DNA of 64,000 nucleotides from an uncultured Bacteroidales bacterium. GTDB lineage: Bacteria; Bacteroidota; Bacteroidia; Bacteroidales; UBA932. Below are positions 29,001 through 50,012 of the stretch, in pieces. The position numbers and the translations under genes are program-made. The DNA is taken from NCBI GenBank assembly GCA_944323445.1, contig CALUSM010000003.1, forward strand, positions 1 to 64,000. Reading direction: 5' to 3'. The notes under the pieces are model-generated. The model saw only the letters and a list, made by a program, of their open reading frames with translations, was not told the origin of the DNA and searched no databases. The first letter of the stretch is position 1, and every line of letters starts with the position of its first letter.

Positions 29001-30319
29001 CCGAGATGCGCATCGTCGACATCAACACCGGCATCACCCTCTCCCAGCATAACATCCCCTACGGAGCCAAGCTCTTCCAGAAGGACGGAGCAAACATCTC
29101 CAAGGGTGACCGCATCTGCGAGTGGGACGCCTACAACGCCGTTACAATCACCGAGCTGCCCGGAACGGTATCGTTCGACAGCCTAATCGAGGGCGTCACC
29201 TTCAGGGAGGAGGCCACCGACGAATACTCCCTCCACAAGGAGAAAGTCATCATCGAGTCCAGGGACAAATCCAAGAACCCCACTATCCACATCATGGATA
29301 ACGGCACCGAGGTGAAGCAGTACAACCTCCCCGTAGGCGCCCACCTGATGGTAGAGGACGGAGAGAAGGTCCAGGCCGGAGATGTTATCGTGAAAATTCC
29401 CCGCGCTATCGGTAAATCCGGTGATATCACCGGAGGTCTGCCCCGCGTCACAGAGCTCTTCGAGGCCCGCAACCCCTCCAATCCCGCCATCGTCGCCGAG
29501 ATCAACGGAGAGGTCCAGATGGGCAAGATCAAGCGAGGCAACCGTGAGATCATCATCCGTTCCAAGACCGGAGACGAGAAACGCTATCTCGTGCCCCTGT
29601 CCAAGCAGATTCTCGTACAGGAGAACGACTACATCCGCGCAGGCATGCCCCTCTCCGACGGTGCCGTCTCCCCTGCCGACATCCTGGCCATCCAGGGTCC
29701 CATCAAGGTGCAGGAATACATCGTCAATGAGATTCAGGAGGTGTACCGTATGCAGGGCGTGAAGATCAACGACAAGCACTTCGAGATCATCGTCCGCCAG
29801 ATGATGCGCAAGGTGCAGATCGTAGACCCCGGAGACACCCGCTTCCTGCCCGAGCAGCTGGTGGACAAGTGGGAGTTCAACGAGGAGAACGACTCGATGT
29901 TCGGCAAGAAAGTCGTGCAGGACGCCGGCGACTCCACCGAGCTCAGGCCCGGACAGATCGTCACCGCCCGCAGGCTCAGAGATGAGAACTCCATGCTCAA
30001 GAGACAGGACCTCAAGCTCGTCCAGGCCCGCGACGCCATCCCCGCAACATCCAACCAGATACTCCAGGGCATCACCCGCGCCGCCCTGCGCACCAACAGC
30101 TTCATGTCCGCCGCCTCCTTCCAGGAGACCACGAAGGTGCTCAGCGAGGCTGCCATCCGCGGTAAGGTCGACACCCTTGAGGGCCTCAAGGAGAACGTCA
30201 TCTGCGGTCACCTCATCCCGGCCGGCACAGGCCAGCGTGAGTTCGAGCGCATCATCGTAGCCTCCATGGACGACTACAACAAGATGGCCGCCGCATCTCC
30301 CCGCCGCAAGGAAGAGTAA
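26048..30319 (+). CDS. rpoC: DNA-directed RNA polymerase subunit beta prime
   Basis: Forms the active site with RpoB. The N-terminal zinc ribbon is [20 protein letters not shown]. The catalytic [15 protein letters not shown] holds the three Mg-binding aspartates. The bridge helix/trigger loop region includes [14 protein letters not shown] and [18 protein letters not shown]-type sequence (here [19 protein letters not shown]). Length is 1423 residues. A good terminator follows 22 bp after the stop. Confidence 0.98.
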
Positions 30320-31168: not shown

Positions 31169-32116
31169 CTAGAAAGCGTAGCCGATACCTACTGAGAAAG
31201 TATTGGCCAGGGGAGAGCTTTCAGAAAGTCCGATGAGATAAGCTGCGTTGACAGACAGGCCCGCAATATTGATGCCGGCACCTACAGAAGCGTATGAGCC
31301 GATGACGAGCTTGTCCTCTTTTCCGTAGTGGTATCCTGCGCTCACCCGTACAAAGTCATTGAAGCTGTACTGGGCACCGACGCCGGTGAAGAAAGCTGTC
31401 TGCTCGAAGAGCATACCGCTCTCCGAATACACGAATATCGCATGCTTGTCCTCAGCACCGAAACGCTGGATGGTTCCTACGCCCAGCTTCACATTGGCAG
31501 GCAGACCGTAAGCGGCAGTTCCGCCGTAGTCTATCTTCGAACCGATATTGGAGGCTGTCAGACCGATGCGCAGGAACTTCAGGTCCAGGAGCGCACCGAA
31601 GTCTGCCGAAACAGCCCCGCCCTTCTTCGGACCGCCGATGTCACTGTAGACATAGTTGACGTTGGCACCGAGGGAGAGAATAGGCAGAATCTTGAAACCA
31701 AGACCGATACCGGCCTGAAGGTCCGTAGGGGTGAAGCTGCCTGTCACTGCTCCTGAAGCAGGATCCGTAAGTTCATAGGACTTGTGCGAGAAATATTTTA
31801 CGCTTGCAGACACTGTCATGAATTTGGCGACACGGCCATATCCGGCCACCGCTGCAACATTGTTGGACGAGAAAGAAGGCTGCCAGAGGGAATAGGCTGC
31901 TCCCACCTGGAACTTCTCATCATCGAGGGCTGTTGTCGCAATGTTGTTCCACATGGCGAATGGAGTGGCCTCCATCACAGTCCCTGATCCTGCCAGACCC
32001 AGGGTCACAGGATCGGGGTTGACATCAAGAAATCCGGCCGTCTGGGCCTGTGCCGCCGTTACGGGGAGTATTATCGCAGCGGCTGTGCTGATAATAGATA
32101 AGAAAGTCTTTTTCAT
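31169..32116 (-). CDS. PorV/PorQ-family outer-membrane beta-barrel protein
   Basis: A 315-residue barrel protein with a signal peptide (cleavage after AQA near residue 24). The mature start GFLDVNPDPVTLGLAGSGT is typical of the PorV/PorQ group of FadL-like barrels, which help move type IX secretion cargo across or onto the outer membrane. Alternating hydrophobic strands continue to the C-terminal aromatic IGYAF. Its ATG shares a base with the stop of the upstream protease gene (TAATG), so translation is coupled. The protease carries a type IX-like C-terminal domain, which fits a role in its export or attachment. The exact class (PorV, PorQ or a paralogue) is not settled by sequence alone. Confidence 0.82.
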   Translation of the reverse strand: MKKTFLSIISTAAAIILPVTAAQAQTAGFLDVNPDPVTLGLAGSGTVMEATPFAMWNNIATTALDDEKFQVGAAYSLWQPSFSSNNVAAVAGYGRVAKFMTVSASVKYFSHKSYELTDPASGAVTGSFTPTDLQAGIGLGFKILPILSLGANVNYVYSDIGGPKKGGAVSADFGALLDLKFLRIGLTASNIGSKIDYGGTAAYGLPANVKLGVGTIQRFGAEDKHAIFVYSESGMLFEQTAFFTGVGAQYSFNDFVRVSAGYHYGKEDKLVIGSYASVGAGINIAGLSVNAAYLIGLSESSPLANTFSVGIGYAF

Positions 32117-34749: not shown

Positions 34750-34840
34750 GTACTTGTTAGAAAATTTGTTTAAACATGTAAATATAGTAAAAAATGCTGA
34801 CGTGGTTCCAAAAATTTGCCCGGCAAGCTGCCCACAGCAT

Positions 34841-34873
34841 AAAAAATGCCCCGCAGGGTCACTGCGGAGCATC
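34841..34873 (-). terminator. Terminator of the left susC-susD-lipoprotein operon
   Basis: On the minus strand ATGCTCCGCAG and CTGCGGGGCAT form a stem (one G-U) followed by TTTTTTA. It lies 25 bp after the lipoprotein stop. Confidence 0.85.
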
Positions 34874-34897: not shown

Positions 34898-35872
34898 TTA
34901 GTAGAGTCCGAGCGCAGCTGCGAGATCCACTCCGGGGAAGCCGAGGATTACGTTGACCTGGCCGAACCAGCTGGTGGTGTTCTCGATGGAAGCTGCGGGG
35001 TTCAGCTGAACGATATCGTCAGACATGAAACCTATAGCCTCGTCCATCTGGCCGTAAGCAGCAGCATTGACATCAGAAGGCATCTGATAGACAATCTGCT
35101 CGCCAAGGCTCTCGTACAGGATGCCGGGGATTACGGATCCGTCCCAACGTACATTGGAGCCGTTTCCGATATCTGTGCGGATGTAGAACTCCCACATCTG
35201 AGAGTACTCTGAGAGTACTGCAGAGCTGCCCCACGATGTGGCGATTCCCTCGCGGTTGCCCCAAGGATTGATAATACGCCAGCGGTCGTAACCGTCTGCC
35301 TTAAGCACTTCCACATCCTGAAGATTGAACTCCTCAGGGCCTGTCAGATAACCGTCACCGTCGAGGTCCACACCGTAGGCGAGGTTGTCATACAACTGAC
35401 CATACGGACTATCTTCTGTTCCAAGAGAAACCCATGTATAGGCCAGGGATGCAGTGAAGCTGACAGACTGATTTCCACCGGGAGTCACATTCGCCAGAGT
35501 AACAGTGATGCTGTAGTTGGTGGCGGGCTGAATGCTCTCGTTGTATCCGATTTGAAGTACAGCCTTGCCGCTGCCGTCTTCGAAAGACAGCTCAGCGGGA
35601 ACATCCAGTACGCTGACTGCCTGATCTCCCAACATCTGGGTGCTGGACACCTGAACAGTAGCTGTACCCTCAGTTGTAGCGCGGTACACGTCAATACTCA
35701 TAACGGGATTCGCGGAAGAAAACTCGAAGTTGAGAGTAGAGGGAGCGCCGAAAGAGTATCCGCCGTCACCCTCCATAGGTGAGTAAGTAGCAGTTACCTG
35801 ATCCTTGCTGCAGGAAGACAGGACAGCTGCACCTGCAACGGCGATTGCCAGTATTTTGAATAATCTTTTCAT
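34898..35872 (-). CDS. SusD-linked surface lipoprotein 1, with an EF-hand-like loop
   Basis: A 324-residue lipoprotein (lipobox VLSSC, Cys21), third gene of the left operon. I do not recognise the whole fold. The N-terminal half is beta-rich and similar to the third gene of the right operon (KDQ, EGDG, VSSTQMLG, SVLD(V/I)P, YSIT). The C-terminal half differs strongly. Residues 169-180, inside DLDGDGYLTGPEEF, match a canonical EF-hand calcium loop (D-x-D-x-D-G...E) absent from the paralogue. By position it is a surface glycan- or peptide-binding accessory to the SusCD complex. The gap to susD is 20 bp. Confidence 0.8.
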   Translation of the reverse strand: MKRLFKILAIAVAGAAVLSSCSKDQVTATYSPMEGDGGYSFGAPSTLNFEFSSANPVMSIDVYRATTEGTATVQVSSTQMLGDQAVSVLDVPAELSFEDGSGKAVLQIGYNESIQPATNYSITVTLANVTPGGNQSVSFTASLAYTWVSLGTEDSPYGQLYDNLAYGVDLDGDGYLTGPEEFNLQDVEVLKADGYDRWRIINPWGNREGIATSWGSSAVLSEYSQMWEFYIRTDIGNGSNVRWDGSVIPGILYESLGEQIVYQMPSDVNAAAYGQMDEAIGFMSDDIVQLNPAASIENTTSWFGQVNVILGFPGVDLAAALGLY

Positions 35873-35892: not shown

Positions 35893-37422
35893 TTAAATTC
35901 CTGAGTCAATAGGGTTCTGGTCAACATCCTGGTTCAAGGACTTGTTTGCATCAAACTCAGCCTGAGGGATGGTAAGTACCCAGTCCCAAGAATCAGGGTT
36001 GTCTGTATGCAGACCTGTCAGCAGAGTCTCGGTAGGCCATCCCATTTCCTCTGTTCTTACGAATCCCTGGTGGAGCCTGCGGATATCGAAGATACGTCCG
36101 TACTCACCCCAGAGCTCGATACGGCGCTGGTTGATGATCTCCTCGCGGAGAGAGCCGGTCTCGTCAGATGTGAGGGCACCCATTGCGGTTCCGGTCTTCT
36201 GTGTGCCGTATCCTTCCTGACGGTACTGCATGAACTCTGTGAGCACCTGCTGTGCCTCGGCGTCACGGCCAAGCATACACAGGGCCTCAGCCTCGACCAG
36301 ATACATCTCGGGAGTTCTCATCCAGATATAGTCACCGGTATAGGTGGTCTTGTCAGCCCACTGGAACTTCATCTGCTGATATCTGGTAGATTCGCTCACC
36401 TCACTGTTGGGATCCCACCATGCGCGACGTACGTCGTTTGCGGACATCTTGTTGTAGAGGTTGGCGCTGATCTGCTTGTGGGCAGTGTTTCCGTATCCGT
36501 CGGATCCGTCATACACCATGTGCATGAAGAAGGATGCGTAGATACCGGACTGGCTGTCGATAATCTCAGCAGCCCAGAGAACGTCGGACTGGTTCCTGTT
36601 GTTCATACCGGAAGTGACATCGGCTGTGAGGGTACCGCCCTGCTTTGCGATGCGGGCAGCCTCGAGAGCATCCTCCCATCTCTCCTGAACCAGGCAGATA
36701 CGGGCCTTGATACCGTTGGCCACGTACATGTCGATGTGGGACGAATGTGTCTGGGCTTTGGAGTTGGTCAGACGTGCGACAGCAGTGTCGATGTCAGCGT
36801 TGATCTGAGCGTATGTGTCACGCAGAGTTCCTCTGGGAGCTCCCTCTGTACCTGCAATGGTAGGCTCGGTGTAGATGGGCACGCCGGGATCGTCCTCGTG
36901 ACCTACGTATGTACGGGCAAACCACTGCGCAAGCATGAAGTAGGAGTAGGCGCGGATGGCATAGGCCTGACCGATAACGTAGTTCACGTCACTGGGTGCT
37001 CCGGCCATGGTCTCCTTGGCGGCGATGATGTAGTTGGCGTTGGAAATCCATGTGTAGTAAGCGTTCCACAGGTCATAGGACCTCCATGAGCTGGAGGTGA
37101 ATGCCTCTTTCACGTCGTAGATGCAGTCATACCAGAACCAACCTGAGCCCTGGGCATCCTGAATATGGTCGTCACCCATGACATCAGCAGCCAGGGCATA
37201 AGCGGAGATACCGAATACCTGGTGGGTATTTCCAGATGTAGACCAGGCAGAGTACATCGACCTGTAGATACCGTTCAGAGGTACGAGAGCGGCTGTTGCA
37301 TTCTCGAACATGCTCTCACCGGTCACGGAGTCGGTAGGCGAGGTGTTGAGCGCGTCCTTGGAGCAGGAGCTGAGGCCTGCGGCGAGAACGGCGATTAATG
37401 CTGATACTAATATCTTTTTCAT
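35893..37422 (-). CDS. SusD/RagB-family surface nutrient-binding lipoprotein 1
   Basis: The 509-residue lid protein of a SusCD importer. Signal peptide and lipobox are MKKILVSALIAVLAAGLSSC (Cys20), followed by SKDALNTSPTDSVTG, a typical SusD start. It continues with TPR-like helices (AYAIRAYSYFMLAQWFARTY) and ends in the SusD C-terminal region (IINQRRIELWGEYGRIFDIRR). It is highly similar to the SusD at 45221, above all in the first 40 residues. It lies 17 bp after susC. The substrate is unknown; no glycoside hydrolase or polysaccharide lyase gene is nearby. Confidence 0.92.
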   Translation of the reverse strand: MKKILVSALIAVLAAGLSSCSKDALNTSPTDSVTGESMFENATAALVPLNGIYRSMYSAWSTSGNTHQVFGISAYALAADVMGDDHIQDAQGSGWFWYDCIYDVKEAFTSSSWRSYDLWNAYYTWISNANYIIAAKETMAGAPSDVNYVIGQAYAIRAYSYFMLAQWFARTYVGHEDDPGVPIYTEPTIAGTEGAPRGTLRDTYAQINADIDTAVARLTNSKAQTHSSHIDMYVANGIKARICLVQERWEDALEAARIAKQGGTLTADVTSGMNNRNQSDVLWAAEIIDSQSGIYASFFMHMVYDGSDGYGNTAHKQISANLYNKMSANDVRRAWWDPNSEVSESTRYQQMKFQWADKTTYTGDYIWMRTPEMYLVEAEALCMLGRDAEAQQVLTEFMQYRQEGYGTQKTGTAMGALTSDETGSLREEIINQRRIELWGEYGRIFDIRRLHQGFVRTEEMGWPTETLLTGLHTDNPDSWDWVLTIPQAEFDANKSLNQDVDQNPIDSGI

Positions 37423-37439
37423 TGTATTATTATCCTTTG

Positions 37440-40400
37440 TTAGAAGTTAATGTTGAGACCGATGGAGTAAGTCTTGTTGGGAGTATAGGAGTAGCCTGTA
37501 CCTCCGGTGAAGTTGTACTGGGGATCCATACCGTCAAGATGGCTGAATGTAGCAATGTTGTCCAGTGCCATATAGAGCCTGATCTGCTGGGCCTTGATCT
37601 TCTGCGCGTACTTGTAGGGCAGGGAGAAGCCGAGGGTGATGTTCTTGATGGCGAAGTACGAAGCGTCGATCAGGTGGTTGTCGTTTGCAGCGTAGGAACC
37701 GTTGATCTCGGCACGGGGAACGTCGGTGATGTCACCGGGCTGCTGCCATCTGCGGAGAGCGTTGACATGCCAGGTGTTACCGGTGTACATGGGCTGCATT
37801 GAGCCGCTGTACATGCTGTCGTAGATCTTACCGCCGATGGAATAGGTGGTCATGATGCTCAGGTCGACGAACTCGAAGAGGGTCAGGCTGGTGCTCAGAC
37901 TACCGTAGAGCTTGGGAAGACGGCTGCCCTGGTACCACTTGCTGGTGGATGCCTTGGATACGTCGGAGCTGCGGTATACATTCAGGGGGTTGCCCTTGTC
38001 ATCCACGGGGGTGTCGCCGTCCCACTTAGGCTCGCTCATGCCCTCGGGCAGGTCGTATACCCAGTACATCTGGGCTCCTGTTGCAGGATCAATGCCGGCA
38101 GACTTGGCCATGTAGAAGGTGTACAGGGGCTTGCCGACCTCGATTACCTGGATACCGGAGGTGATGCGGTCATCGTCGGTGAGTTTCAGCACCTCGTTGC
38201 GGGTGGTGGATCCGAGAGCGTCGATGCGCCATGTGAAGTTCTTCTTGTTGAAGATCTGCACGCCGAGGGCCATCTCGACACCGTCGTTGACCATGTTTCC
38301 GATGTTGGAGTTATAGCCGGTGAATCCGGTGGACATTGCCATGGGGAAGGCCAGGAGCATGTCGCGGGTGTAGCGGCGGTAGTACTCGATGCTGAAGTCG
38401 AGAACGTTGTTGAAGAGACGGAAGTCGAGACCGATGTTGAGGTTCTCGTTCTTCTCCCAGGTTACGTTGGGATTCTCAAGAGTTGACACGAAAGCACCGC
38501 TCATGTTGGCGTTGGCCCATGTCAGGTTGTAGAAGCTCTGCCATGCGTAGTACGAGCCGAGGTTGTCGTTACCCTGGACACCGTAGCTGGCGCGGAGGGC
38601 CAGGTGGTCGATCCAGCTTACGTTCTGCATCCAGCGCTCGTTGGTGATGTTCCAGTTGGCGCCCACGGACCAGAAGAGACCCCAGCGGTGGTCAGGATGG
38701 AACCTCGAGGAACCGTCGGTACGGATGGATGCGGACAGGAAGTAGCGGTCGGCGTAGTCGTAGTTCAGACGGCCCAGCCAGGACTCGATCTTATATGCAT
38801 GGCTGTAGGAGTTTGTGCTCACTACGGTTGTGGCGGGAGCCATCTCGATGATACCGTCTACCAGACCGGTCTTCTGACCGTCGAGGTAGGAGTATGCGTA
38901 GTCATAGTACTCGTGACCGGCGAGGAGACCGATGGTGTGTCCGTTGAAGGTGCGGTCATAGGTGAGCAGCTGGTTGAAGGTGTAGGAGAGCATCCTCGAG
39001 TTGGCCTTGGTCAGACGGCCGTTGGAGGAGGCGGCGTTGCCGTGGTACATATTATAATAGGTAGTAGCGTTCTGGGTGCGGTAGTCGGCATTGAAGTTCA
39101 CGGTGAACTTCAGGCCCTTTGCCCAACCCATCTCGTCGCTGTCGGAACCCAGGGTGATGTAGGTCCTGACGCCGGCGCTCTCGCTCTTGGTGCCCATGTA
39201 GTCATCATAGAGGGTGGCCACGGAGTTGAAGTTGGCCTGGGTAGGACGGGCTACACCGTAGTCGAACTGGCGGTTGCCGAGCTCATCAAGGGCGTCGGTA
39301 CCGTCGAGGTTCTTGAGGTATACGGGATAGATGGGAGCCATGAACTGAGCCGAGTACCATACGTTGGAGTTCTCGGATCCGGTGTATGTGGGACCATAGG
39401 AGTCAGTGGCTGCCATGGAGAGGTTCAGACCAGCTGCGAACCACTTGGCGGGAGTCAGGTCGACGTTGGCACGGCCGCTGAAACGCTGGAAGCCGGACTC
39501 CTTCAGGATACCGTCCTGATCCAGATAACCCAGGGAGAGCAGAGCCTTGATCTTCTCAGAACCGCCGCTCACGCTGAGATTGTGCTCCTGACGGAAGGCA
39601 TTGTGGTTGGTGACCTCCTCCATCCAGTCCTCGTTGTAGGCGGATATGGCGTCAGCCCTTACTGCTCCGGTGGCGGGATCAATCAGAGTCTCCCATGTGT
39701 AGTTCTTGAAAGGATTGTACTGCTCGCCGCCGAGAGCGCCGGAAAGACCGCTCATGGCAAGCTGTGAGGCCTCCTCCCAGTTATATCCGTTGCTGAAGAC
39801 ATATCTGTTGCGCAGAGCCTCGTAGGTCATGTTCACGAAGTCTCTCTGGTCAACCATCTCATAGGGTTTGATGGCCCTGTCCTGCCAGCCGGCGTTGAAG
39901 GTGTAGGATACGTTCACCTTGTCGCCCTTGGCGCGCTTGGTGGTGATCATCACGACGCCGTTGGCGGCACGCGCACCGTAAAGGGCTGCCGAAGAAGCGT
40001 CCTTCAGCACGGTCATCGACTCGATGTCGGCCGGGTTGATGGAGCTCAGGCTGCCGTCGTAAGGAGCGCCGTCCACTACGTACAGAGGGCTCTGACTGGC
40101 GTTGATGGAACCGAATCCGCGGATACGGATGGTGGCATCTGAACCAGGCTGACCGGAAGAGGACACCTGTACTCCTGCGGACATTCCCTCGAGAGCCTGC
40201 GAGAGGTTAGGAACGACACGTTTCTCGATCTTCTCGCTGCTGATAGCTGTAGCGGAACCGGTGATCGCGTCTTTCTTCGCGGTACCGTAAGCCACCACGA
40301 TCACGTCATCGAGGGTAGTAGCCTCGGGAACGAGGACGATGTCGATGGAGGTCCTGCCGTTTACGGGCACTTCCTGAGTGGTATAGCCCAGGAATGTCAC

Positions 40401-40619
40401 TTCCAGGACTCCGTTCGCAGGTACGGACAGGGAGAAGGATCCCATATCGTCGGTCATGGCCCACTGGGTGGTGCTGCCTTTGAGCACGACTGAGGCTCCG
40501 ACTATCCCCTCGCCTGTTGAGGCATCAGTAACAGTACCTGTAACTGTGATATCCTGCGCATAAGCTGCGGCAGTTACCGCGAGTAACAGACCTGTTAAAA
40601 ATAGTCTGATCTTTTTCAT
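37440..40619 (-). CDS. SusC/RagA-family TonB-dependent transporter 1, in the ON orientation
   Basis: A 1059-residue outer-membrane importer. Intact signal peptide MKKIRLFLTGLLLAVTAAAYA, carboxypeptidase-D-regulatory-like domain (residues 24-100), DDVIVVAYGT (104-113, TonB-box region), plug (RIRGFGSINASQSPLYVVDG; LKDASSAALYGARAANGVVM) and a 22-strand barrel ending TYSIGLNINF. Codons 11-16 of the signal peptide lie on the 16-bp core of the inverted repeat shared with the right susC. The first ten codons, leader and promoter region lie inside the invertible segment. The copy is therefore expressible as drawn and would lose its start on inversion. Near-identical to SusC2 in the barrel. Energised by TonB-ExbBD encoded elsewhere. 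Confidence 0.93.
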   Translation of the reverse strand: MKKIRLFLTGLLLAVTAAAYAQDITVTGTVTDASTGEGIVGASVVLKGSTTQWAMTDDMGSFSLSVPANGVLEVTFLGYTTQEVPVNGRTSIDIVLVPEATTLDDVIVVAYGTAKKDAITGSATAISSEKIEKRVVPNLSQALEGMSAGVQVSSSGQPGSDATIRIRGFGSINASQSPLYVVDGAPYDGSLSSINPADIESMTVLKDASSAALYGARAANGVVMITTKRAKGDKVNVSYTFNAGWQDRAIKPYEMVDQRDFVNMTYEALRNRYVFSNGYNWEEASQLAMSGLSGALGGEQYNPFKNYTWETLIDPATGAVRADAISAYNEDWMEEVTNHNAFRQEHNLSVSGGSEKIKALLSLGYLDQDGILKESGFQRFSGRANVDLTPAKWFAAGLNLSMAATDSYGPTYTGSENSNVWYSAQFMAPIYPVYLKNLDGTDALDELGNRQFDYGVARPTQANFNSVATLYDDYMGTKSESAGVRTYITLGSDSDEMGWAKGLKFTVNFNADYRTQNATTYYNMYHGNAASSNGRLTKANSRMLSYTFNQLLTYDRTFNGHTIGLLAGHEYYDYAYSYLDGQKTGLVDGIIEMAPATTVVSTNSYSHAYKIESWLGRLNYDYADRYFLSASIRTDGSSRFHPDHRWGLFWSVGANWNITNERWMQNVSWIDHLALRASYGVQGNDNLGSYYAWQSFYNLTWANANMSGAFVSTLENPNVTWEKNENLNIGLDFRLFNNVLDFSIEYYRRYTRDMLLAFPMAMSTGFTGYNSNIGNMVNDGVEMALGVQIFNKKNFTWRIDALGSTTRNEVLKLTDDDRITSGIQVIEVGKPLYTFYMAKSAGIDPATGAQMYWVYDLPEGMSEPKWDGDTPVDDKGNPLNVYRSSDVSKASTSKWYQGSRLPKLYGSLSTSLTLFEFVDLSIMTTYSIGGKIYDSMYSGSMQPMYTGNTWHVNALRRWQQPGDITDVPRAEINGSYAANDNHLIDASYFAIKNITLGFSLPYKYAQKIKAQQIRLYMALDNIATFSHLDGMDPQYNFTGGTGYSYTPNKTYSIGLNINF
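40495..40588 (-). repeat. Inverted repeat left arm (recombination site in susC1)
   Basis: On the minus strand it begins with the 16-bp core TGTTACTCGCGGTAAC (40588-40573). A 16-bp stretch with 6 differences follows, then 62 identical bases (40556-40495). The partner is 42048-42141 in opposite orientation. The GTTAC/GTAAC arms around five bases fit a tyrosine-recombinase crossover site. Confidence 0.85.
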
Positions 40620-40944
40620 GTAGATAATTTTTTAAAGTTAATAAAAAGTTAATTGTTTTTTGAGTTTGTTAATGTGTTCGAGTAAACATAAAAAAAGCAC
40701 CGGCAGTCTTCTGCAGTTTTCTGCGGAAGACTACTTACATTCAGGGGAATATATTTAGTCAGCTTAGTCAGGGAATGTCGGACAGCTTTCAAACTAAAAA
40801 AATTAAAGGTTAGTTACTTCTTTTTCTTAGGTCGGTCTGTAGTACTTATCAGGTTTCAAATTGCAAATTTGCAAAAAGTTTTCTAAAAAAACAACTAATA
40901 ACCTCAAAAACTATCCAGCGCAGAGCTGTCCCGGGGCCGTCGGA
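40620..40944 (-). promoter_or_regulatory. Leader and promoter region of susC1, AT-rich, with a hairpin
   Basis: A 325-bp non-coding region between the recombinase and susC1. On the minus strand a stem-loop AGTCTTCCGCAG-AAAA-CTGCAGAAGACT (40732-40705, one mismatch) is followed after 8 bases by a run of seven T, resembling an attenuator. TTAGTCAG occurs twice (40755-40762, 40764-40771). A TTTG-rich tract lies at 40857-40875. A long structured 5' leader of about 200 nt is suggested. No gene is seen. Confidence 0.6.
40837..40867 (-). promoter_or_regulatory. Weak candidate promoter for susC1 (TTTG-N19-TACTACAG)
   Basis: Minus-strand TTTG (40867-40864) and TACTACAG (40844-40837) are exactly 19 bases apart. 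The -7 box shares only TA and the final G with TAnnTTTG, so it may need an activator, or the true promoter may lie elsewhere in the leader. Confidence 0.3.
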
Positions 40945-41985
40945 TCAACTTGCGGAGACGTACCTGCGGATGATTTCCCTGGCCTCCTCATCGAGATTCT
41001 GACAGAGGTAGCGTCTGAATGATTCCTCACTCGTGTGACCGCTGATGCTGCGGATCTGCTCCGTACTCAGCCTTCCGTCCAGGTAGAGGTTGGTGATGTA
41101 GCTGCGTCTGGCGGTATGGGAGGACACGAGCTCATACTTGTGATGCACGGTCCTGACCCTGGTTCCGCCCCGGCATGACCAGACCGTAACACTGGAGTCT
41201 ATGCCGGCCATCATGCATATTGTCTTGATGCTGGTGTTGAGAAAGGAGATGGAGACCTTCGGCAGAGAACCTCCCCACCGATCGATGATCTCCGTAAGAC
41301 CGTCATCCAGAATCGGTATGACTACCATCTTGCCGGTTTTTTTCTGAATCCTGCGGAGCGTCCTGTATTCCCTTCCCCCGATGCTTACAGTCTCTATGTC
41401 CTCGGCCGAGATACAGGAATAGTCTGAAAAGCGCTGTCCGCAGTAGCAGCCGGCCAGGAAAACGTCCCTTACCTTCATCAGCTGCGGAGAATGGCGGAGG
41501 TCCAGTTCAGCAAGGGCGCCGATCTCGTCCCTGGTGAGGTATACCTTTTTATATATAATTGAAGGGCGGTGGGTCACAAAATTCCTGCTGTTCTGCACCA
41601 CCGTGGAGGATACTCCTTCCTCCAGAGCGCTGTTCATAATCGACTTAATCAAGGCAACATACTGATATTTAGTGCTTTCTGCATAGTTGCAGCGGTCGCA
41701 GTATTCCATAAATCCAGCATAGGTGTCCAGGCCGATCTGTGAGAACTTGAGGTCAGCAGTATCTGCGAATCTCTCAAATTCAGGCCATACCCTGAGTATT
41801 TTCTTATAGTTGCAGATGCTGTTGTAAGCATATTTCTTTCCCTTGTTCAGCAAGGTGCAATTCTCCATACCGGCAATTTTTGCCTTAAGGTAGCTGATGA
41901 AAACCTCGTCACGGTTCTCCTTCTTTCTGCGAGCGATTGTCAGCTCGAAATTCATTCCTAGAATTTTTTTAAAGATACGGATCAT
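40945..41985 (-). CDS. Tyrosine recombinase, probable invertase of the susC switch
   Basis: A 346-residue phage-integrase-family protein. The N-terminal SAM-like domain (about residues 20-130, arm and core binding) precedes the catalytic domain with all active residues: Arg185 (CGQRFSDY), Lys216/219 in QKKTGKM, His290 and Arg293 (SSHTARRSYI), His317 (SISGHTSEESF) and nucleophile Tyr326 (FRRYL). It lies inside the segment bounded by the susC inverted repeats, so it would invert with it. The base composition is visibly more AT-rich than the flanking susC genes, with AGG and ATA codons, suggesting separate ancestry. No transposon cargo, tRNA target or excision gene is near, which favours a local invertase over a mobile-element integrase. 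Confidence 0.9.
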   Translation of the reverse strand: MIRIFKKILGMNFELTIARRKKENRDEVFISYLKAKIAGMENCTLLNKGKKYAYNSICNYKKILRVWPEFERFADTADLKFSQIGLDTYAGFMEYCDRCNYAESTKYQYVALIKSIMNSALEEGVSSTVVQNSRNFVTHRPSIIYKKVYLTRDEIGALAELDLRHSPQLMKVRDVFLAGCYCGQRFSDYSCISAEDIETVSIGGREYRTLRRIQKKTGKMVVIPILDDGLTEIIDRWGGSLPKVSISFLNTSIKTICMMAGIDSSVTVWSCRGGTRVRTVHHKYELVSSHTARRSYITNLYLDGRLSTEQIRSISGHTSEESFRRYLCQNLDEEAREIIRRYVSAS

Positions 41986-42046
41986 AGCTGATGGTTTTAA
42001 TTATTATTCACGGTGCTAAAACTATAAAATATTTCCTCCTCCAAGC

Positions 42047-45000
42047 ATGTTACTCGCGGTAACCTCAGCAGCTTTCGCTCAGGATATCACAGTTACAGGT
42101 ACTGTTACTGATGCCTCAACAGGCGAGGGGATAGTCGGAGCTTCAGTCGTACTCAAGGGCAGCACTACCCAGTGGGCCATGACCGACGACATGGGCGCCT
42201 TCTCTCTGACCGTGCCTGCTAACGGAGTACTGGAAGTCACATTCCTGGGCTACACCACTCAGGAAGTGCCCATAAACGGCAGAGCTTCCATAGACATCGT
42301 CCTCACTCCCGAGGCGACGACTCTCGATGACGTGATTGTTGTGGCTTACGGCACCCAAAAGAAGGATGCTATCACCGGATCCGCGGCAGCCGTGAGCAGC
42401 GAGAAGATCGAGAAGCGAATCGTGCCCAACCTGACCCAGGCCCTCGAGGGAATGGCAGCCGGCGTGCAGGTGTCCGGAACCGGTCGTCCCGGTGACGGAG
42501 CCTCTATCCGTATCCGCGGTTTCGGTTCCATCAACGCGTCGAACGACCCTCTGTACGTAGTGGACGGTGCTCCCTTCGACGGCAGCCTGAGCTCCATCAA
42601 CCCGGCCGACATTGAATCAATGACCGTGCTGAAGGACGCGTCCGCTGCAGCCCTTTACGGTGCGCGTGCCGCCAACGGCGTCGTGATGATCACCACCAAG
42701 CGCGCCAAGGGTGACAAGGTGAACGTATCCTACAGCTTCAACGCGGGCTGGCAGGACAGGGCCATCAAACCCTATCAGATGGTGGGCCAGGAGGACTTTG
42801 TCAACCTGACCTACGAGGCCCTTCGCAACGGCTACGTGTTCGACAACGGATATGACTGGGAAACAGCATCCCAGCTGGCCATGCAGGGACTCTCGAGCGC
42901 CCTGGGCGGCGAACTCTATAACCCCTACAAGAACTATACATGGGAGACAGTGATCGACCCCGCCACCGGAGCCGTAAGGGCAGATGCCCAGTCCGCCTAC
43001 TACGAGGACTGGATGGAGGAGATTACCAACCACAACGCATTCCGCCAGGAGCACAACCTGAGTATCAGCGGCGGCAGCGAGAAGGTTAAGGCCATGCTGT
43101 CCCTCGGTTATCTGGACCAGGACGGTATTCTTAAAGAATCCGGATTCTCCCGTTTCAGCGGCCGCGCCAACGTGGACTTTGTTCCTACCAAATGGCTGTC
43201 CGCCGGCCTGAACCTCTCGATGGCCACCACCAACACCGAAGGTCCCACATACAGCGGTTCGGAGAACTCCAATGTGTGGTACTCAGCACAGTTCATGGCT
43301 CCCATCTACCCTGTATACCTCAAGAACCTTGACGGTACAGACGCTCTTGATGACCTGAACCAGCGCCAGTACGACTACGGCGTGAACCGTCCCACCCTGA
43401 CCAACTTCAACTCCGTGGCCACCCTGTACGACGACTACATGGGCACCAAGGCTGACAACGCCGGCGTGAGGACCTACATCACCCTGGGTTCCGACCGCGA
43501 CGACATGGGCTGGGCCAAGGGTCTGAAGCTGACCGTGAACTTCAACGCCGACTACGCCAACCAGAATGCCACCACGTACTACAACATGTACCACGGCAAC
43601 GCCGCATCCTCCGACGGCCGTCTGACGAAGACCAACGCCAGGATGCTCTCCTACACTTTCAACCAGCTGCTGACCTACGACCGCACCTTCGGGGACCACA
43701 CCATCGGTGTCCTCGCCGGTCATGAGTACTATGACTACAGCTACTCCTACCTGACCGCCCAGAAGACCGGTCTGGTGGACGGAATCATCGAGCTGGCTCC
43801 CGCCACAACCCTGGCGGACGGCAACTCCTACTCCAACACCTACAGGATCGAGTCCTGGCTCGGCCGTCTGAACTACGACTACGCTAACCGCTACTTCATC
43901 TCTGCTTCCCTCCGTACCGACGGATCCTCGAGATTCCATCCTGACCACCGCTGGGGCCTCTTCTGGTCCGTGGGCGCCAACTGGAACATCACCAACGAGC
44001 GCTGGATGCAGAACGTAAGCTGGATCGACCACCTGGCCCTCCGCGCCAGCTACGGTATCCAGGGTAACGACAACGTCGTGTCCGGCTACTACGCATGGCA
44101 GTCCTTCTACAATCTGACCTGGGCCAACGCCAACCTCCCCGGCGCCACTATCTCCACCCTGGAGAACCCCAACGTGACCTGGGAGAAGAACGAGAACCTC
44201 AACATCGGTCTTGACTTCCGTCTCTTCAACAACATCCTCGACTTCAGCATCGAGTACTACCGCCGCTACACCCGCGACATGCTCCTGGCCTTCCCTATGG
44301 CCATGTCGACCGGCTTCACCGGCTACAACTCCAACGTGGGCAACATGGTCAACGACGGTGTCGAGATGTCCCTGGGCGTGCAGATCTTCAACAAGAAGAA
44401 CTTCACATGGCGTGTGAACGCGATGGGCTCCACCACCCGTAATGAGGTGCTGAAGCTCACCGAGACCGACCAGATGATCTCCGGCGTACAGGTTATCGAG
44501 GTGGGCAAGCCCCTCTACACCTTCTATATGGCCAAGTCCGCCGGTGTTGACCCCGCCACCGGTGCGCAGATGTACTGGGCATACGACCTGCCCGAGGGCA
44601 TGAGCAAGCCTATGTGGGACGGTGACACTCCCGTGGATGACAAAGGCAACCCCCTGGAGCTGTACCGCACCTCAGACTACAACAAGGCCAACAACAGTAA
44701 GTTCTACCTGGGCAGCCGTCTTCCCAAGCTGTACGGTAGCCTGAGCACCGAGATGAACATCTTCGAGTTCATCGACCTGAGCATCATGACTACCTACTCC
44801 ATCGGCGGATGGATCTACGAGAGCCTCTACAGCGGTGCCATGCAGCCCATGTACACCGGTAACACCTGGCACGTGAACGCGCTCCGCAGATGGCAGAAGC
44901 CCGGTGACATCACCGACATCCCGCGTGCCGAGATCAACGGCACCTACGCCGCCAACGACAGCAAGCTCGTGGATGCCTCCTACTTCGCCATCAAGAACAT

Positions 45001-45199
45001 CACCCTCGGCTTCTCCCTGCCCTACAAGTACGCGCAGAGGATCAAGGCCCAGCAGATCCGTATCTACATGGCACTGGACAACATCGCCCTCTTCTCTCAC
45101 ATGGACGGCATGGATCCCCAGTACAACTTCACCGGAGGCACCGGTTACTACTACACTCCCAACAAGACCTACTCTATCGGTCTCAACATTAACTTCTAA
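42047..45199 (+). CDS. SusC/RagA-family TonB-dependent transporter 2, 5' end truncated (OFF orientation)
   Basis: 1050 residues from the first ATG; otherwise a full SusC with the same order of regulatory-like domain, plug (RIRGFGSINASNDPLYVVDG) and barrel ending TYSIGLNINF. The N-terminus is MLLAVTSAAFAQ: the basic n-region and first hydrophobic residues of the signal peptide are missing, and homology to susC1 begins exactly at the 16-bp core. No TAnnTTTG box is seen in the 61 bp upstream, which instead faces the recombinase start. The remainder shows no frameshift or stop, so selection has kept it functional. I read this as a silent cassette awaiting inversion rather than a dead gene. Confidence 0.9.
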   Translation: MLLAVTSAAFAQDITVTGTVTDASTGEGIVGASVVLKGSTTQWAMTDDMGAFSLTVPANGVLEVTFLGYTTQEVPINGRASIDIVLTPEATTLDDVIVVAYGTQKKDAITGSAAAVSSEKIEKRIVPNLTQALEGMAAGVQVSGTGRPGDGASIRIRGFGSINASNDPLYVVDGAPFDGSLSSINPADIESMTVLKDASAAALYGARAANGVVMITTKRAKGDKVNVSYSFNAGWQDRAIKPYQMVGQEDFVNLTYEALRNGYVFDNGYDWETASQLAMQGLSSALGGELYNPYKNYTWETVIDPATGAVRADAQSAYYEDWMEEITNHNAFRQEHNLSISGGSEKVKAMLSLGYLDQDGILKESGFSRFSGRANVDFVPTKWLSAGLNLSMATTNTEGPTYSGSENSNVWYSAQFMAPIYPVYLKNLDGTDALDDLNQRQYDYGVNRPTLTNFNSVATLYDDYMGTKADNAGVRTYITLGSDRDDMGWAKGLKLTVNFNADYANQNATTYYNMYHGNAASSDGRLTKTNARMLSYTFNQLLTYDRTFGDHTIGVLAGHEYYDYSYSYLTAQKTGLVDGIIELAPATTLADGNSYSNTYRIESWLGRLNYDYANRYFISASLRTDGSSRFHPDHRWGLFWSVGANWNITNERWMQNVSWIDHLALRASYGIQGNDNVVSGYYAWQSFYNLTWANANLPGATISTLENPNVTWEKNENLNIGLDFRLFNNILDFSIEYYRRYTRDMLLAFPMAMSTGFTGYNSNVGNMVNDGVEMSLGVQIFNKKNFTWRVNAMGSTTRNEVLKLTETDQMISGVQVIEVGKPLYTFYMAKSAGVDPATGAQMYWAYDLPEGMSKPMWDGDTPVDDKGNPLELYRTSDYNKANNSKFYLGSRLPKLYGSLSTEMNIFEFIDLSIMTTYSIGGWIYESLYSGAMQPMYTGNTWHVNALRRWQKPGDITDIPRAEINGTYAANDSKLVDASYFAIKNITLGFSLPYKYAQRIKAQQIRIYMALDNIALFSHMDGMDPQYNFTGGTGYYYTPNKTYSIGLNINF
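42048..42141 (+). repeat. Inverted repeat right arm (recombination site in susC2)
   Basis: The core TGTTACTCGCGGTAAC is at 42048-42063 and the 62-bp identical block at 42080-42141. It is the inverted partner of 40495-40588. The reading frame through the core is the same in both genes. Confidence 0.85.
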
Positions 45200-45220: not shown

Positions 45221-46759
45221 ATGAAAAAGATATTAGTATCAGCATTAATCGCCGTTCTCGCCGCAGGCCTCAGCTCCTGCTCCAAGGACGCGCTCAACAC
45301 CTCGCCCACCGACTCGGTGACAGGTGAGGGACTGTTCGAAAACGCCACAGCGGCCCTCATGCCCCTGAACGGTATCTACAGGTCCATGTACACAGCCGGA
45401 TGGTCCACCCTCAACGGCGGCAACTCGCACCAGTGCTTCGGCATCTCGGCCTACAACCTGGCCGCCGACGTGATGGGCGAGGACTTCATCCAGGACGGAC
45501 AGGGCTCCGGCTGGTTCTGGTACGACTGCCTCTACGACGTGAAGGGCATGTACACCAGCGGCGCATGGCGCCCCTACGACCTCTGGAACGCCTACTACAC
45601 CTGGATCTCCAACGCCAACTACATCATCGCTGCCAAGGAGACCATGACAGGCACTCCCAGCGACATAAACTACGTGATCGGCCAGGCCTACGCCATCCGC
45701 GCCTACTCCTACTTCATGCTGATTCAGTGGTATGCCCGCACATACAAGGGACATGAGAGCGAGAAGGGCGTGCCCGTATACACCGAGCCGACCATCGCCG
45801 GTACCGAGGGCAAGGGCAGGGGCACCGTCGAGGAGACCTACGCCCAGATCAACGCCGACATCGACACCGCCATCGCCCGCCTGAGCAACTCGTATGCCCA
45901 GACCCACGCCTCCCACATCGACATGTACGTGGCCAACGGTATCAAGGCCCGTATCTGCATGGTTCAGGAGAGATGGGAGGAGGCCCTCGAGTGCGCCCGC
46001 ATAGCGCAGCAGGGAGGTACCCTGACCGCATCAGTGACCGGCGGAATGAACGACGTGGGCCAGAGCGACGTGCTCTGGGGCGCTGAGATCATCCCCGACC
46101 AGTCCGGTATCTACGCCTCCTTCATGATGCACATGGTGTATGACGGCACCGACGGATACGGCAACACCGCCCGCAAGCTCATCAGCGCCGACCTCTACAA
46201 CAAGATGGGAGCCAACGATATCCGCCGCGCATGGTGGAATCCTTCGGAGAAGACCAGCACCGACACGAGGTACCAGCAGGTGAAGTTCCAGTGGTCCAAC
46301 AAGTCCACCTACGAGGCCGACTACATCTGGATGAGGACTCCCGAGTTCGTGCTGACCGAGGCCGAGGCCCTCTGCCGTCTCGGACGCGACGGCGAGGCCC
46401 AGCAGGTGCTCAACAGCTTTATGCAGAACTACCGCGACACTAATTATGAGACCGCCAAGACAGGAACAGCCCTTGGAACACTCACGACCGACTACGTTGG
46501 TTCCCTCCTTGAGGAGATTATCATCCAGCGCCGAATCGAACTCTGGGGCGAGTACGGACGTATCTTCGATATCCGCAGGCTGAAACAGGGATTCCAGAGG
46601 ACCGAGGCCCTCGGATGGCCTGCGGCAACCCTGCTGACCGGACTCAAGACCTACAACCCCGAGTCCTGGGACTGGGTAATGACCATCCCCCAGGCCGAGT
46701 TCGACGCCAACCACGCTCTCACAGCCGATGATCAGAACCCCAGGGATTCAGGTATTTAA
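45221..46759 (+). CDS. SusD/RagB-family surface nutrient-binding lipoprotein 2
   Basis: A 512-residue SusD lipoprotein with the same signal sequence and lipobox as SusD1 (Cys20) and the same SKDALNTSPTDSVTGE start. Differences gather in loops, e.g. AGWSTLNGGNSHQCF here against AWSTSGNTHQVF, and WNPSEKTSTDTRYQ against WDPNSEVSESTRYQ. These are surface positions that could alter ligand recognition. It lies 21 bp after susC2 and 16 bp before the third gene, and would be expressed only with susC2. Confidence 0.92.
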   Translation: MKKILVSALIAVLAAGLSSCSKDALNTSPTDSVTGEGLFENATAALMPLNGIYRSMYTAGWSTLNGGNSHQCFGISAYNLAADVMGEDFIQDGQGSGWFWYDCLYDVKGMYTSGAWRPYDLWNAYYTWISNANYIIAAKETMTGTPSDINYVIGQAYAIRAYSYFMLIQWYARTYKGHESEKGVPVYTEPTIAGTEGKGRGTVEETYAQINADIDTAIARLSNSYAQTHASHIDMYVANGIKARICMVQERWEEALECARIAQQGGTLTASVTGGMNDVGQSDVLWGAEIIPDQSGIYASFMMHMVYDGTDGYGNTARKLISADLYNKMGANDIRRAWWNPSEKTSTDTRYQQVKFQWSNKSTYEADYIWMRTPEFVLTEAEALCRLGRDGEAQQVLNSFMQNYRDTNYETAKTGTALGTLTTDYVGSLLEEIIIQRRIELWGEYGRIFDIRRLKQGFQRTEALGWPAATLLTGLKTYNPESWDWVMTIPQAEFDANHALTADDQNPRDSGI

Positions 46760-46775
46760 CATTTAAAATGCAAAC

Positions 46776-47720
46776 ATGATGAAAAGATTATTCAAGACAA
46801 TTGCAATAGCCATTGCGGGTGCCGCCATGCTGGTATCCTGCAACAAGGACCAGATTAGCGAGACCTACACACCAGCTGAAGGTGACGGTCTGTTCACTTT
46901 CAATGCTACCGGTACTGCCGCTTTTGAGTTCGGACCTGAAAGCCCCAACATGACCATCGAGCTGTACCGCAGTGTCGCTGATGCGGAAGCTACAGTACCG
47001 GTATCAAGCACACAGATGCTCGGTGAGACACCCGTCTCTGTTCTCGACATTCCGTCCGAGGCCAAATTCGAGGCCGGCAGCCATACAGCGCATGTTGTCA
47101 TTACCTACAATGAGAATCTCAAAGCCGACAACAGCTACAGTATCACCCTGAGTATCCCTGCGGAGCAGACATCCCCCGGAGGAAACGCCACCATCGCTTT
47201 CAATGCCTCAATGGCATACGTGTGGGAGTCCCTGGGAACAGACGGACAGTTCTATGACAACATGGGCGGCCTTATCGTGCCCGTTGAAGTATTGCTGGCG
47301 ACAAACTCACCCGTTCCCAACAGCCGCTACAGGATTATGAATCCTTATCCCGCAGAAGCACAGGCCGCTATCGCAGCAGGTGTCGGTGCTTTTGTCGGAG
47401 GTCCTGTCAGTGAATACATTGAGTTCGTTGTTGATCCCGAAACAAAACTCCTGACCTGGAGCGGATACTGGAACAGCGGCGTGCTTGTAGATGCTACCCT
47501 CAGCTTCTCGCATCTCAATTACTGGTTCGGGACAGAGTCTCCGTTTGCAGGAGCCACCGAGTTCCCCTCCGAATGCGGAATGATGATGGAAGGTATCTTC
47601 CAGTTCAAACCTCATGTATCGGCTTTTGCCGATGAAGCGCAGAGCAGCGGCTGGACCATCAGCAACGCATACGAGTATCTCGCACTTCCCGGTTATGACC
47701 TGAGCAGCATCGGGCTGTAG
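46776..47720 (+). CDS. SusD-linked surface lipoprotein 2
   Basis: A 314-residue lipoprotein (lipobox MLVSC, Cys22), third gene of the right operon. It starts with two ATG codons; the paralogue's start favours the second (46779). The N-terminal part aligns with lipoprotein 1, but from about residue 150 the two differ in sequence and the EF-hand-like loop is absent. Its C-terminal part has aromatic-rich segments (LTWSGYWNSGVLVD, HLNYWFGTESPF) of a kind often found in ligand-binding faces. Function by position: accessory binding protein of the second SusCD complex. The family is not recognised. Confidence 0.8.
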   Translation: MMKRLFKTIAIAIAGAAMLVSCNKDQISETYTPAEGDGLFTFNATGTAAFEFGPESPNMTIELYRSVADAEATVPVSSTQMLGETPVSVLDIPSEAKFEAGSHTAHVVITYNENLKADNSYSITLSIPAEQTSPGGNATIAFNASMAYVWESLGTDGQFYDNMGGLIVPVEVLLATNSPVPNSRYRIMNPYPAEAQAAIAAGVGAFVGGPVSEYIEFVVDPETKLLTWSGYWNSGVLVDATLSFSHLNYWFGTESPFAGATEFPSECGMMMEGIFQFKPHVSAFADEAQSSGWTISNAYEYLALPGYDLSSIGL

Positions 47721-47795: not shown

Positions 47796-50012
47796 TTACA
47801 ACACGCTGAAAGCCACATTGAGTCCGGCAGTGACGATGGATACCATGCTCATGAGCTTGATGAGGATGTTGAGGGAGGGACCGGAGGTGTCCTTGAAAGG
47901 ATCGCCTACGGTGTCTCCGACCACTGTGGCCTTATGGGCGTCGGAGCCCTTGCCTCCGAGGTTGCCCTCCTCCACATACTTCTTGGCATTGTCCCAGGCA
48001 CCGCCCGAGTTGGCCATGAAGATAGCCAGCACGAAGCCAGAGCCGAGAGAACCCACCAGCAGGCCTATTGTACCGGCCACACCGAAGAACACTCCCACCA
48101 GTACCGGCACGATGATGGCCAGAAGCGAGGGGAAGAGCATCTCCTGTTGGGCACCTTTGGTAGAGATGGCCACGCAGCGGGCATAGTCCGGAACGGCCTC
48201 TCCTGTAAGGATGCCCTTGATCTCGCGGAACTGACGGCGCACCTCCGCCACCATCTTCTGAGCGGCACGTCCCACCGCGTTCATGGTCAGACCGCAAAAA
48301 AGGAAGGACATCATGGCACCGATGAAGACTCCGGCCAGAACCGTGGGATTCATCAGATTGATATGGTAATAGTCCATGAAATCAGGAATGGTGGCCTGCG
48401 CCACTTCCACTGTCCTGCCTCCGCCAAGGTCCAGGACAGTCTCCCCTATCCTCTGAAGTCCTATCTTTATCTCCTCGAGATAGGAGGCGAGAAGGGCAAG
48501 GGCGGTCAGGGCAGCGGAGCCGATGGCAAAACCTTTGCCGGTAGCGGCTGTAGTGTTGCCGAGAGCGTCCAGTATGTCGGTGCGCTGGCGTACCTCCGGC
48601 TCGAGCTCGCTCATCTGGGCGTTGCCGCCTGCATTGTCCGCGATGGGCCCGTAGGCATCGGTGGCCAGGGTGATACCGAGTGTAGAGAGCATGCCGACAG
48701 CGGCGATGCCTATGCCGTAGAGCCCTAGACTCAGATTCTGGGCCGTGAGCATGCCGGTCACGTCAAAGCCTATCGCACAGAGGTATGCCAGGATGATGGC
48801 CACGACGATGGTGATGACCGGGACGGCAGTCGATATCATACCGAGACCAACGCCGGAGATAATGACTGTAGCCGGGCCGGTGTTGGAGCTTTCTGCGAGC
48901 TTGCGGGTCGGTCTGTAGGAATGCGAAGTGAAATATTCGGTGGACTGGCCGATGATGATGCCGGCTATCAGGCCCACGACCACAGAGCAGGATATCCAGG
49001 CCCAGTTGGGGATATCCAGGACGTACAGGATGCCGAAGGTGGCCGCGGCTATCAGGGCCGAGGACACATTGGTTCCGAGGCTCAGGGAGCGGAGCAGCTG
49101 TTTCATGCCGGCGCCCTCCCTGGTCTTCACGAGATAGATTCCGATGACCGAGAGGATGATGCCGACCGCAGCGATAAGCATAGGGGCGAAGACAGCCCTG
49201 AGCTGCATCGAAGTGTCCGCGTAGGAGTAGAACGCCGAGGCACCGAGAGCTGAGGTGGCCAGGATGGAGCCGCAGTAGGACTCATAGAGGTCTGCTCCCA
49301 TACCGGCTACATCACCCACGTTGTCCCCGACATTGTCAGCGATGGTTGCCGGATTGCGGGGATCGTCCTCGGGAATACCGGCCTCCACCTTTCCCACCAG
49401 GTCGGCGCCCACGTCAGCGGCCTTGGTGTAGATACCACCGCCGACACGGGCGAAAAGGGCCTGCGTCGAGGCTCCCATGCCGAAGGTAAGCATCGTCGTC
49501 GTCACCACGACCAGTTTCTGGGGGCCGTCAGCGCTGATAAAATGGTCTAGGATCAGGTACCATACCGATATGTCCAGCAGGCCGAGTCCCACGACCGTAA
49601 GGCCCATCACGGCGCCGGAACGGAAAGCCAGCTTCAGGCCGGCGTTGAGGGAGCGGCGGGCGGCACTGGCAGTCCTGCCCGAGGCGTATGTAGCGGTCTT
49701 CATGCCTATGAAACCGGCCAGACCGGAGAAGAATCCGCCGGTCAGGAACGCGAACGGAACCCAGTGGTTCTGCACGTCGAATCCGTAGGCCAGGACTGCG
49801 AAGAATACGGCCAGAATGACGAATACTATGGTTACAACCTTGTACTGCTGCTTGAGATAGGCCATCGCGCCCTTGCGCACATAGGCCGCAATCTCTTTCA
49901 TCGTAGGAGTGCCCTCGTCCTCCTTCAGCATTCCTCTGTAGAAGAAGTATGCGAATCCCAGCGCTATCAGGGACGCAAGGGGCACAAGCCAGAATAACAA
50001 ATCTGCTGACAT
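47796..50012 (-). CDS. hppA: Membrane-bound ion-translocating pyrophosphatase, K+-dependent type
   Basis: Uses pyrophosphate hydrolysis to pump H+ and/or Na+ across the inner membrane. It is a 738-residue protein with about 16 helices. The substrate-binding segment is DVGADLVGKVEAGIPEDDPR with NPATIADNVGDNVGD, and a second acidic cluster, ATDAYGPIADNAGGNAQM, is present. The sequence GNTTAATGKG carries Ala where K+-independent enzymes have Lys, so the K+-dependent class is expected. H+, Na+ or dual pumping cannot be decided by eye; Bacteroides homologues include Na+/H+ pumps. It lies 23 bp after murI on the same strand. Confidence 0.95.
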   Translation of the reverse strand: MSADLLFWLVPLASLIALGFAYFFYRGMLKEDEGTPTMKEIAAYVRKGAMAYLKQQYKVVTIVFVILAVFFAVLAYGFDVQNHWVPFAFLTGGFFSGLAGFIGMKTATYASGRTASAARRSLNAGLKLAFRSGAVMGLTVVGLGLLDISVWYLILDHFISADGPQKLVVVTTTMLTFGMGASTQALFARVGGGIYTKAADVGADLVGKVEAGIPEDDPRNPATIADNVGDNVGDVAGMGADLYESYCGSILATSALGASAFYSYADTSMQLRAVFAPMLIAAVGIILSVIGIYLVKTREGAGMKQLLRSLSLGTNVSSALIAAATFGILYVLDIPNWAWISCSVVVGLIAGIIIGQSTEYFTSHSYRPTRKLAESSNTGPATVIISGVGLGMISTAVPVITIVVAIILAYLCAIGFDVTGMLTAQNLSLGLYGIGIAAVGMLSTLGITLATDAYGPIADNAGGNAQMSELEPEVRQRTDILDALGNTTAATGKGFAIGSAALTALALLASYLEEIKIGLQRIGETVLDLGGGRTVEVAQATIPDFMDYYHINLMNPTVLAGVFIGAMMSFLFCGLTMNAVGRAAQKMVAEVRRQFREIKGILTGEAVPDYARCVAISTKGAQQEMLFPSLLAIIVPVLVGVFFGVAGTIGLLVGSLGSGFVLAIFMANSGGAWDNAKKYVEEGNLGGKGSDAHKATVVGDTVGDPFKDTSGPSLNILIKLMSMVSIVTAGLNVAFSVL

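Follow-up and report, generated by a model that had tools for sequence, protein, structure and literature searches.

The best-described counterparts of the system presented here are shufflons, in which DNA inversion exchanges genes for SusC/SusD-type receptors. Three papers describe such a shufflon in Bacteroides fragilis, with the invertase Tsr0667 and region EE of strain NCTC 9343 (PMC4747536, PMC11852207, PMC5729914), and one of them ascribes to Tsr0667 inversions of the shufflon type at nine regions besides three SusC/SusD clusters (PMC4747536). Nutrient-receptor shufflons are also mentioned for Bacteroides thetaiotaomicron (PMC12548429), and GTTAC-GTAAC palindromes are reported for Bacteroidales invertons, mostly at promoters of capsule and surface-protein genes (PMC12118408). 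Here we describe a locus in a 64,000-nucleotide stretch of DNA (the window; contig CALUSM010000003.1 of assembly GCA_944323445.1, positions 1 to 64,000) from an uncultured Bacteroidales bacterium, whose genus we judge by its relatives to be Candidatus Coprenecus. The locus is very probably a site-specific inversion switch, in which a tyrosine recombinase encoded by the invertible segment chooses between two SusC-SusD-lipoprotein operons. Among the titles of the papers found to name Coprenecus, none concerns DNA inversion.

Like the B. fragilis shufflon, the window locus pairs a putative site-specific invertase with inverted repeats overlapping the starts of ragA/susC homologues, and inversion would bring alternative susC/susD pairs behind one promoter. 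By analogy the locus would work as that shufflon does; we set it beside Tsr0667 by description and claim no orthology. Features of the Tsr0667 type found here are a tyrosine recombinase with a full catalytic set nearby, a single susC that carries its leader and start (headed) with the rest lacking them (headless), and, in two relatives (G012 and G015), natural inversion at the repeats. The locus differs from the B. fragilis shufflon in that the recombinase gene lies inside an invertible segment of 1.5 kb, the site falls within signal-peptide codons, the predicted promoter and start travel with the segment, and there are two operons rather than the three potential gene pairs mentioned for B. 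fragilis 638R. A master enzyme for distant loci, as Tsr0667 is, is not indicated by sequence, the two perfect sites both being local. With the B. thetaiotaomicron shufflons it would share a phase-variable choice of nutrient receptors by gene shuffling. Its recombination core, GTTAC-N5-GTAAC, has the same palindromic arms as the GTTAC-type invertons but, unlike those described, which lie mostly at promoters, it lies in coding sequence. Altogether, we regard the switch as a compact variant of the SusC/SusD inversion already known in Bacteroides, with the internal recombinase, the moving promoter and start, and the restriction to two perfect sites as its distinguishing elements.

Layout of the predicted invertible segment

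The original prediction described two susC genes that face outward and carry at their 5' ends inverted 94-bp arms with 6 mismatches and an identical 16-bp core; the 1,459 bp between the cores hold the recombinase gene together with the leader and first ten codons of susC1. The arms and core were reproduced in the register 40588 to 42048 (Table 1), arm similarity being lost immediately on the inner side of the cores. The spacing was confirmed, and the content was borne out by the open reading frames (ORFs): the segment comprises the 346-residue recombinase gene and 356 bp from its stop to core 1, a leader stretch that ends in ATG and ten susC1 codons. The placement of the site at the susC 5' ends stands and can be narrowed to the inside of the signal-peptide codons. 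Judged by eye, the signal peptide is cleaved after residue 21; since the joint lies within it, the mature SusC should not change. When the segment was inverted in silico, susC2 gained a 1,060-residue ORF starting MKKIRLFLTGLLLAVTSAAFAQ, with the MKKIRLFLTG leader, and susC1 was left headless with a 1,049-residue ORF from the core, in support of the either/or geometry that had been proposed.

The arms are the 5' ends of susC paralogues with 86.5% amino acid identity, and the approximately 85% DNA identity between them continues through susC. Because of this, the repeat is homology and its length is not evidence for a switch; its 6 mismatches in 94 bp are only mildly better than the 15% divergence would give (binomial P of 0.009). 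Nor did we accept the 16-bp identity by itself as evidence, because stretches of this kind can be shared by paralogues at 85%. Plain paralogy leaves unexplained that homology ends exactly at the core, that susC2 is startless and that the 2.29-Mb assembly, at 88.9% completeness, contains the perfect core in just two places, both at the switch locus. With two mismatches allowed, the search found 1 extra site, compared to 5 matches of a reversed control pattern, and the loose GTTAC/GTAAC palindrome shows no enrichment in this genome assembly (5 sites versus 10 for the reversed control). The core keeps a TTA codon; of 408 Leu codons counted over eight local genes, 14 are TTA. Elsewhere in the assembly (G000:C1:98676-98689) there is a perfect palindrome, GTTACCTTGGTAAC, of a type known from inverton sites.

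The promoter scan used the strict pattern TTG-N18..22-NANNTTTG, which we take to be the Bacteroidetes-type motif. The match at 40864-40894 is the only one in 40560-42070, where 0.16 would be expected per leader region and strand, and the whole window holds 7 on both strands. Across the genus we collected 16 leader copies from 15 of 19 genomes, counting those of G005, G006, G014 and G018 regardless of locus; 13 of the 16 have a promoter match ahead of the start, at varying distance. Scans for sigma-70 promoters and for terminators stayed near the level of shuffled sequence (3 versus 2.1 and 2 versus 1.5, respectively). The 5' untranslated region (UTR) also contains a hairpin, compared among six genus genomes that were picked for having the region, with the sequences trimmed at a CCGGT anchor: at least two types of standard pair occur at 7 of 9 main-stem positions, and pairing is broken in 5 of 54 cells. 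It matched no Rfam family, the one chance match falling below its gathering score, and it is possibly an attenuator.

Table 1. Features of the switch locus and its surroundings in the window.
Feature	Position	Strand	Remarks
Recombination core, site 1	40573..40588	-	15-bp dyad GTTACTCGCGGTAAC (40573-40587) plus one base; susC1 codons 11-16
Recombination core, site 2	42048..42063	+	5' end of headless susC2
Inverted arm 1	40495..40588	-	5' part of susC1
Inverted arm 2	42048..42141	+	5' part of susC2
Predicted invertible segment	40589..42047	.	1,459 bp
Tyrosine recombinase gene	40945..41985	-	346 residues; PF13102, PHROG integrases, alignment, Foldseek
Mobile start	40589..40619	-	codons 1 to 10 (MKKIRLFLTG) of the headed susC, ATG included
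Predicted Bacteroidetes-type promoter	40864..40894	-	TTG-N20-CAAATTTG; reads towards susC1
5' UTR hairpin	40702..40736	-	ends approximate; stem pairs vary among 6 relatives
Weak candidate promoter of the recombinase gene	42018..42044	-	putative; relaxed pattern; inside the segment
susC1	37440..40619	-	headed (presumed ON); leader MKKIRLFLTG
susD1	35893..37422	-	operon 1
Lipoprotein-like gene 1	34898..35872	-	no Pfam/NCBIfam family; named from its N terminus by eye
Secreted subtilase (S8) with fn3	32116..34872	-	downstream of operon 1
susC2	42047..45199	+	headless (presumed OFF); starts at the core as MLLAVT, without leader
susD2	45221..46759	+	operon 2
Lipoprotein-like gene 2	46776..47720	+	
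rpoC, C-terminal part	29195..30316	+	conserved flank
hppA, ion-translocating pyrophosphatase	47796..50012	-	conserved flank; present in 12 genus genomes looked at

In the mechanism that we propose, the recombinase would recombine the two inverted copies of GTTACTCGCGGTAAC, both lying in the signal-peptide codons of outward-facing susC genes, and thereby turn a segment that carries one predicted promoter, a structured 5' leader and codons 1 to 10, start codon included. In the current orientation this cassette would complete susC1 and drive susC1-susD1-lipoprotein, with the subtilase downstream; in the flipped orientation it would complete susC2-susD2-lipoprotein and leave susC1 headless, and the headless operon would presumably be silent. 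A population would then be a mixture of cells, each expressing one receptor complex or the other.

The recombinase and the core across Candidatus Coprenecus

The product of the recombinase gene matches, in Pfam, only the SAM-like DNA-binding domain PF13102 (E value of 6e-8), and PHROG integrase models span its residues 51-340 (E value of 1.6e-16). R185, K216, H290, R293, H317 and Y326 are invariant in four aligned recombinases, two of them nearly alike, and presumably form the tyrosine-recombinase catalytic set. Foldseek comparison of a structure model returned 17 matches at E ≤ 0.001, and all 17 are XerH, lambda Int, Cre and its variants, an integron integrase or the Tn1549 Int. A PDB sequence search with the recombinase alignment gave nothing at E ≤ 1, and PADLOC detected nothing. 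Scanning the genome contigs with the single recombinase sequence found 0 relatives, compared to three with the alignment as query. An order-wide search of 393 genomes (E ≤ 1e-40) yielded three other recombinases with 29 to 37% identity; these were dropped, as the 12.8 to 15.6 kb around them contain no susC, susD or lipoprotein relative (tblastn with seven window proteins, E ≤ 1e-5).

Within the genus, the recombinase is present (E ≤ 1e-30) in 4 of the 19 genomes, that of the window included, and all four have a leader-side core with 0 mismatches in 15 positions. In the 10 recombinase-less genomes with a leader, defined by no match genome-wide at this threshold and none in the fetched flanks, the leader-side core has 3 to 8 mismatches in every case, and over the 32 bp between ATG and core there are 0 to 3 mismatches in eight of them and 6 in two. 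The co-occurrence of intact core and recombinase gives a Fisher P of 0.001 with G003 left out and relatedness ignored. The G003 leader-side core also has 0 mismatches, with a recombinase remnant only: residues 1-40 and a scrap of 123-152, at L044 5434-5556, beside the intact core and a headed susC. A tree of hppA from 12 genomes places the species that have the recombinase in two clades, and both clades include relatives that lack it (G013 in one, G007 and G009 in the other). A degenerate core pattern is present in 6 of the 12 genus genomes searched for it (G000, G001, G003, G010, G012 and G015).

In the window, G012 and G015 the locus sits between rpoC and hppA. In the related genomes, which the original prediction proposed comparing for the opposite orientation, we found a natural inversion, an alternative junction at the core, and leaders in both orientations relative to the flanks, pointing towards rpoC in the window and towards hppA in G012, G015 and G011. 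Compared to each other, G012 and G015 have collinear outer flanks; from the second core to the third, 10.9 kb are inverted, with inverted identity of 97.8% across 4,958 bp and of 88.2% across 5,530 bp. At informative sites, i.e., those where both positions differ consistently, 114 of 115 upstream of the core are collinear and 1,274 of 1,280 downstream are inverted. Of the three susC genes that each of these two genomes has at the locus, one is headed; the claimed compact two-operon layout holds for the window, which has the smallest form seen here, and needs extending to three-operon versions in these relatives. In G001, contigs C84 and C17 have exactly 131 bp in common, counted from the first base of the 15-bp dyad, upstream of which one contig has the leader and the other the end of an ATPase gene. 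This overlap appears to pin an alternative junction to the core edge, although two susC copies with the same start could also yield it.

The G001 locus ends lie on separate contigs, one set comprising rpoC, an AAA-ATPase-like/PDDEXK gene and a headless susC start, and the other the leader, recombinase and hppA; the AAA-ATPase-like/PDDEXK gene (L043 8097-9689) stands right before the headless susC start, between rpoC and the core. In G011 (L073 3600-4400) the leader lies beside a subtilase gene and faces hppA, its core carries 3 mismatches and a close recombinase is missing there; this locus looks like a frozen inverted state. Another headless susC, near hppA in G010 (L071 6826), carries a variant palindrome, GTTATCCGCGCTAAC.

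Alternative explanations for the inverted arms

Several observations weigh against a recombinase-driven switch. For the enzyme, Pfam gave no PF00589 match even at E ≤ 10, the structure model, built from four sequences, is modest (mean predicted local distance difference test score of 62.8), and the Foldseek template-modelling scores are low (0.26 to 0.37). The switch is patchy, as 15 of the 19 genus genomes, several of them incomplete, are without the recombinase at E ≤ 1e-30. The 16th leader copy, on the 11.7-kb G001 contig C77 (L042 7209), belongs to a further headed susC, whose core is perfect, and the contig gave no recombinase match; in G010, the contig with a headless susC (L045 8636) ends one base past a perfect core, with no close recombinase, which is perhaps unbinned. 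The susC2 gene retains an in-frame ATG at the core, and weak read-through expression is possible. Inverted junctions were seen in relatives only; flipping in the window's own species is a prediction.

The headless-side sites of G012 and G015 are also imperfect (1 mismatch at site a; 2 at site c in G012 and 1 in G015), and their crossover is bounded only to about 300 bp, from -15 (last collinear site) to +285 (first inverted site), because these susC copies are near identical over their first 285 bp; this crossover alone cannot separate site-specific from homologous exchange. That near-identical stretch, and arms that run through susC at about 85% DNA identity, are what would be expected if the long inverted arms of susC gave rise to the inversions by general homologous recombination and the recombinase gene were incidental. 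We consider this very improbable, since homology starts exactly at the core in the window and at the first base of the dyad in the G001 contigs, the core keeps its rare TTA, and the leader-side core is intact alongside a recombinase or its remnant and decayed without one in two clades, with contig C77 of G001 as the one exception. It is highly improbable that the locus is a static inverted duplication in which susC2 heads a 5'-truncated pseudo-operon and nothing flips. Such a duplication would fit the one orientation seen in the window's species, the single susC and susD at the locus in 5 of 5 recombinase-less genomes with the whole locus (G004, G007, G009, G013 and G016) and the decayed recombinase next to an intact core in G003; it sits poorly with an intact recombinase, with susC2, susD2 and lipoprotein gene 2 as intact ORFs across 5.7 kb, and with the inversion between homologous sites by which G012 and G015 differ. 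Finally, another recombinase of the genome might work the core while the local gene serves other sites: the assembly holds five further recombinase-like genes (24 to 29% identity), and one B. fragilis invertase is reported to act at many distant sites (PMC4747536). Both perfect cores of the assembly lie at this locus, however, and in the genus as a whole an intact site goes with the local gene, so that we give this explanation very little weight.

Neighbouring genes and biological meaning

The two SusC-SusD-lipoprotein sets of the original prediction are both present, and to them we add the subtilase that follows operon 1. Between the operons, amino acid identity is 86.5% for susC, 79.7% for susD and 42.5% for the lipoprotein-like genes. 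The window subtilase has a sub-threshold Por_Secre_tail match, and a subtilase homologue stands on the rpoC side in 4 of the 5 recombinase-less relatives with a complete locus.

A tentative but plausible history makes the rpoC-hppA locus of Candidatus Coprenecus an expression site that collects receptors. Its ancestor would have been a single susC operon that gained a recombinase beside its promoter and leader, with the ten signal-peptide codons and the site becoming a universal socket; headless SusCD-lipoprotein operons would then have been recruited and swapped, two in the window and three in G012 and G015, and frozen as first the recombinase and then the core decayed. If this is true, the genus holds the birth-and-death stages of a shufflon. 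At this one locus, species that have the switch can be compared with others whose recombinase has decayed and with others lacking the switch, which makes the origin and loss of such switches testable.

The locus would represent a minimal self-contained SusC/SusD shufflon, with one recombinase, two sites and one promoter/start cassette in 1.5 kb. SusC receptors set the nutrient uptake of gut bacteria and may serve as phage receptors; receptor heterogeneity at the switch could affect both the response to diet and survival of phage attack.

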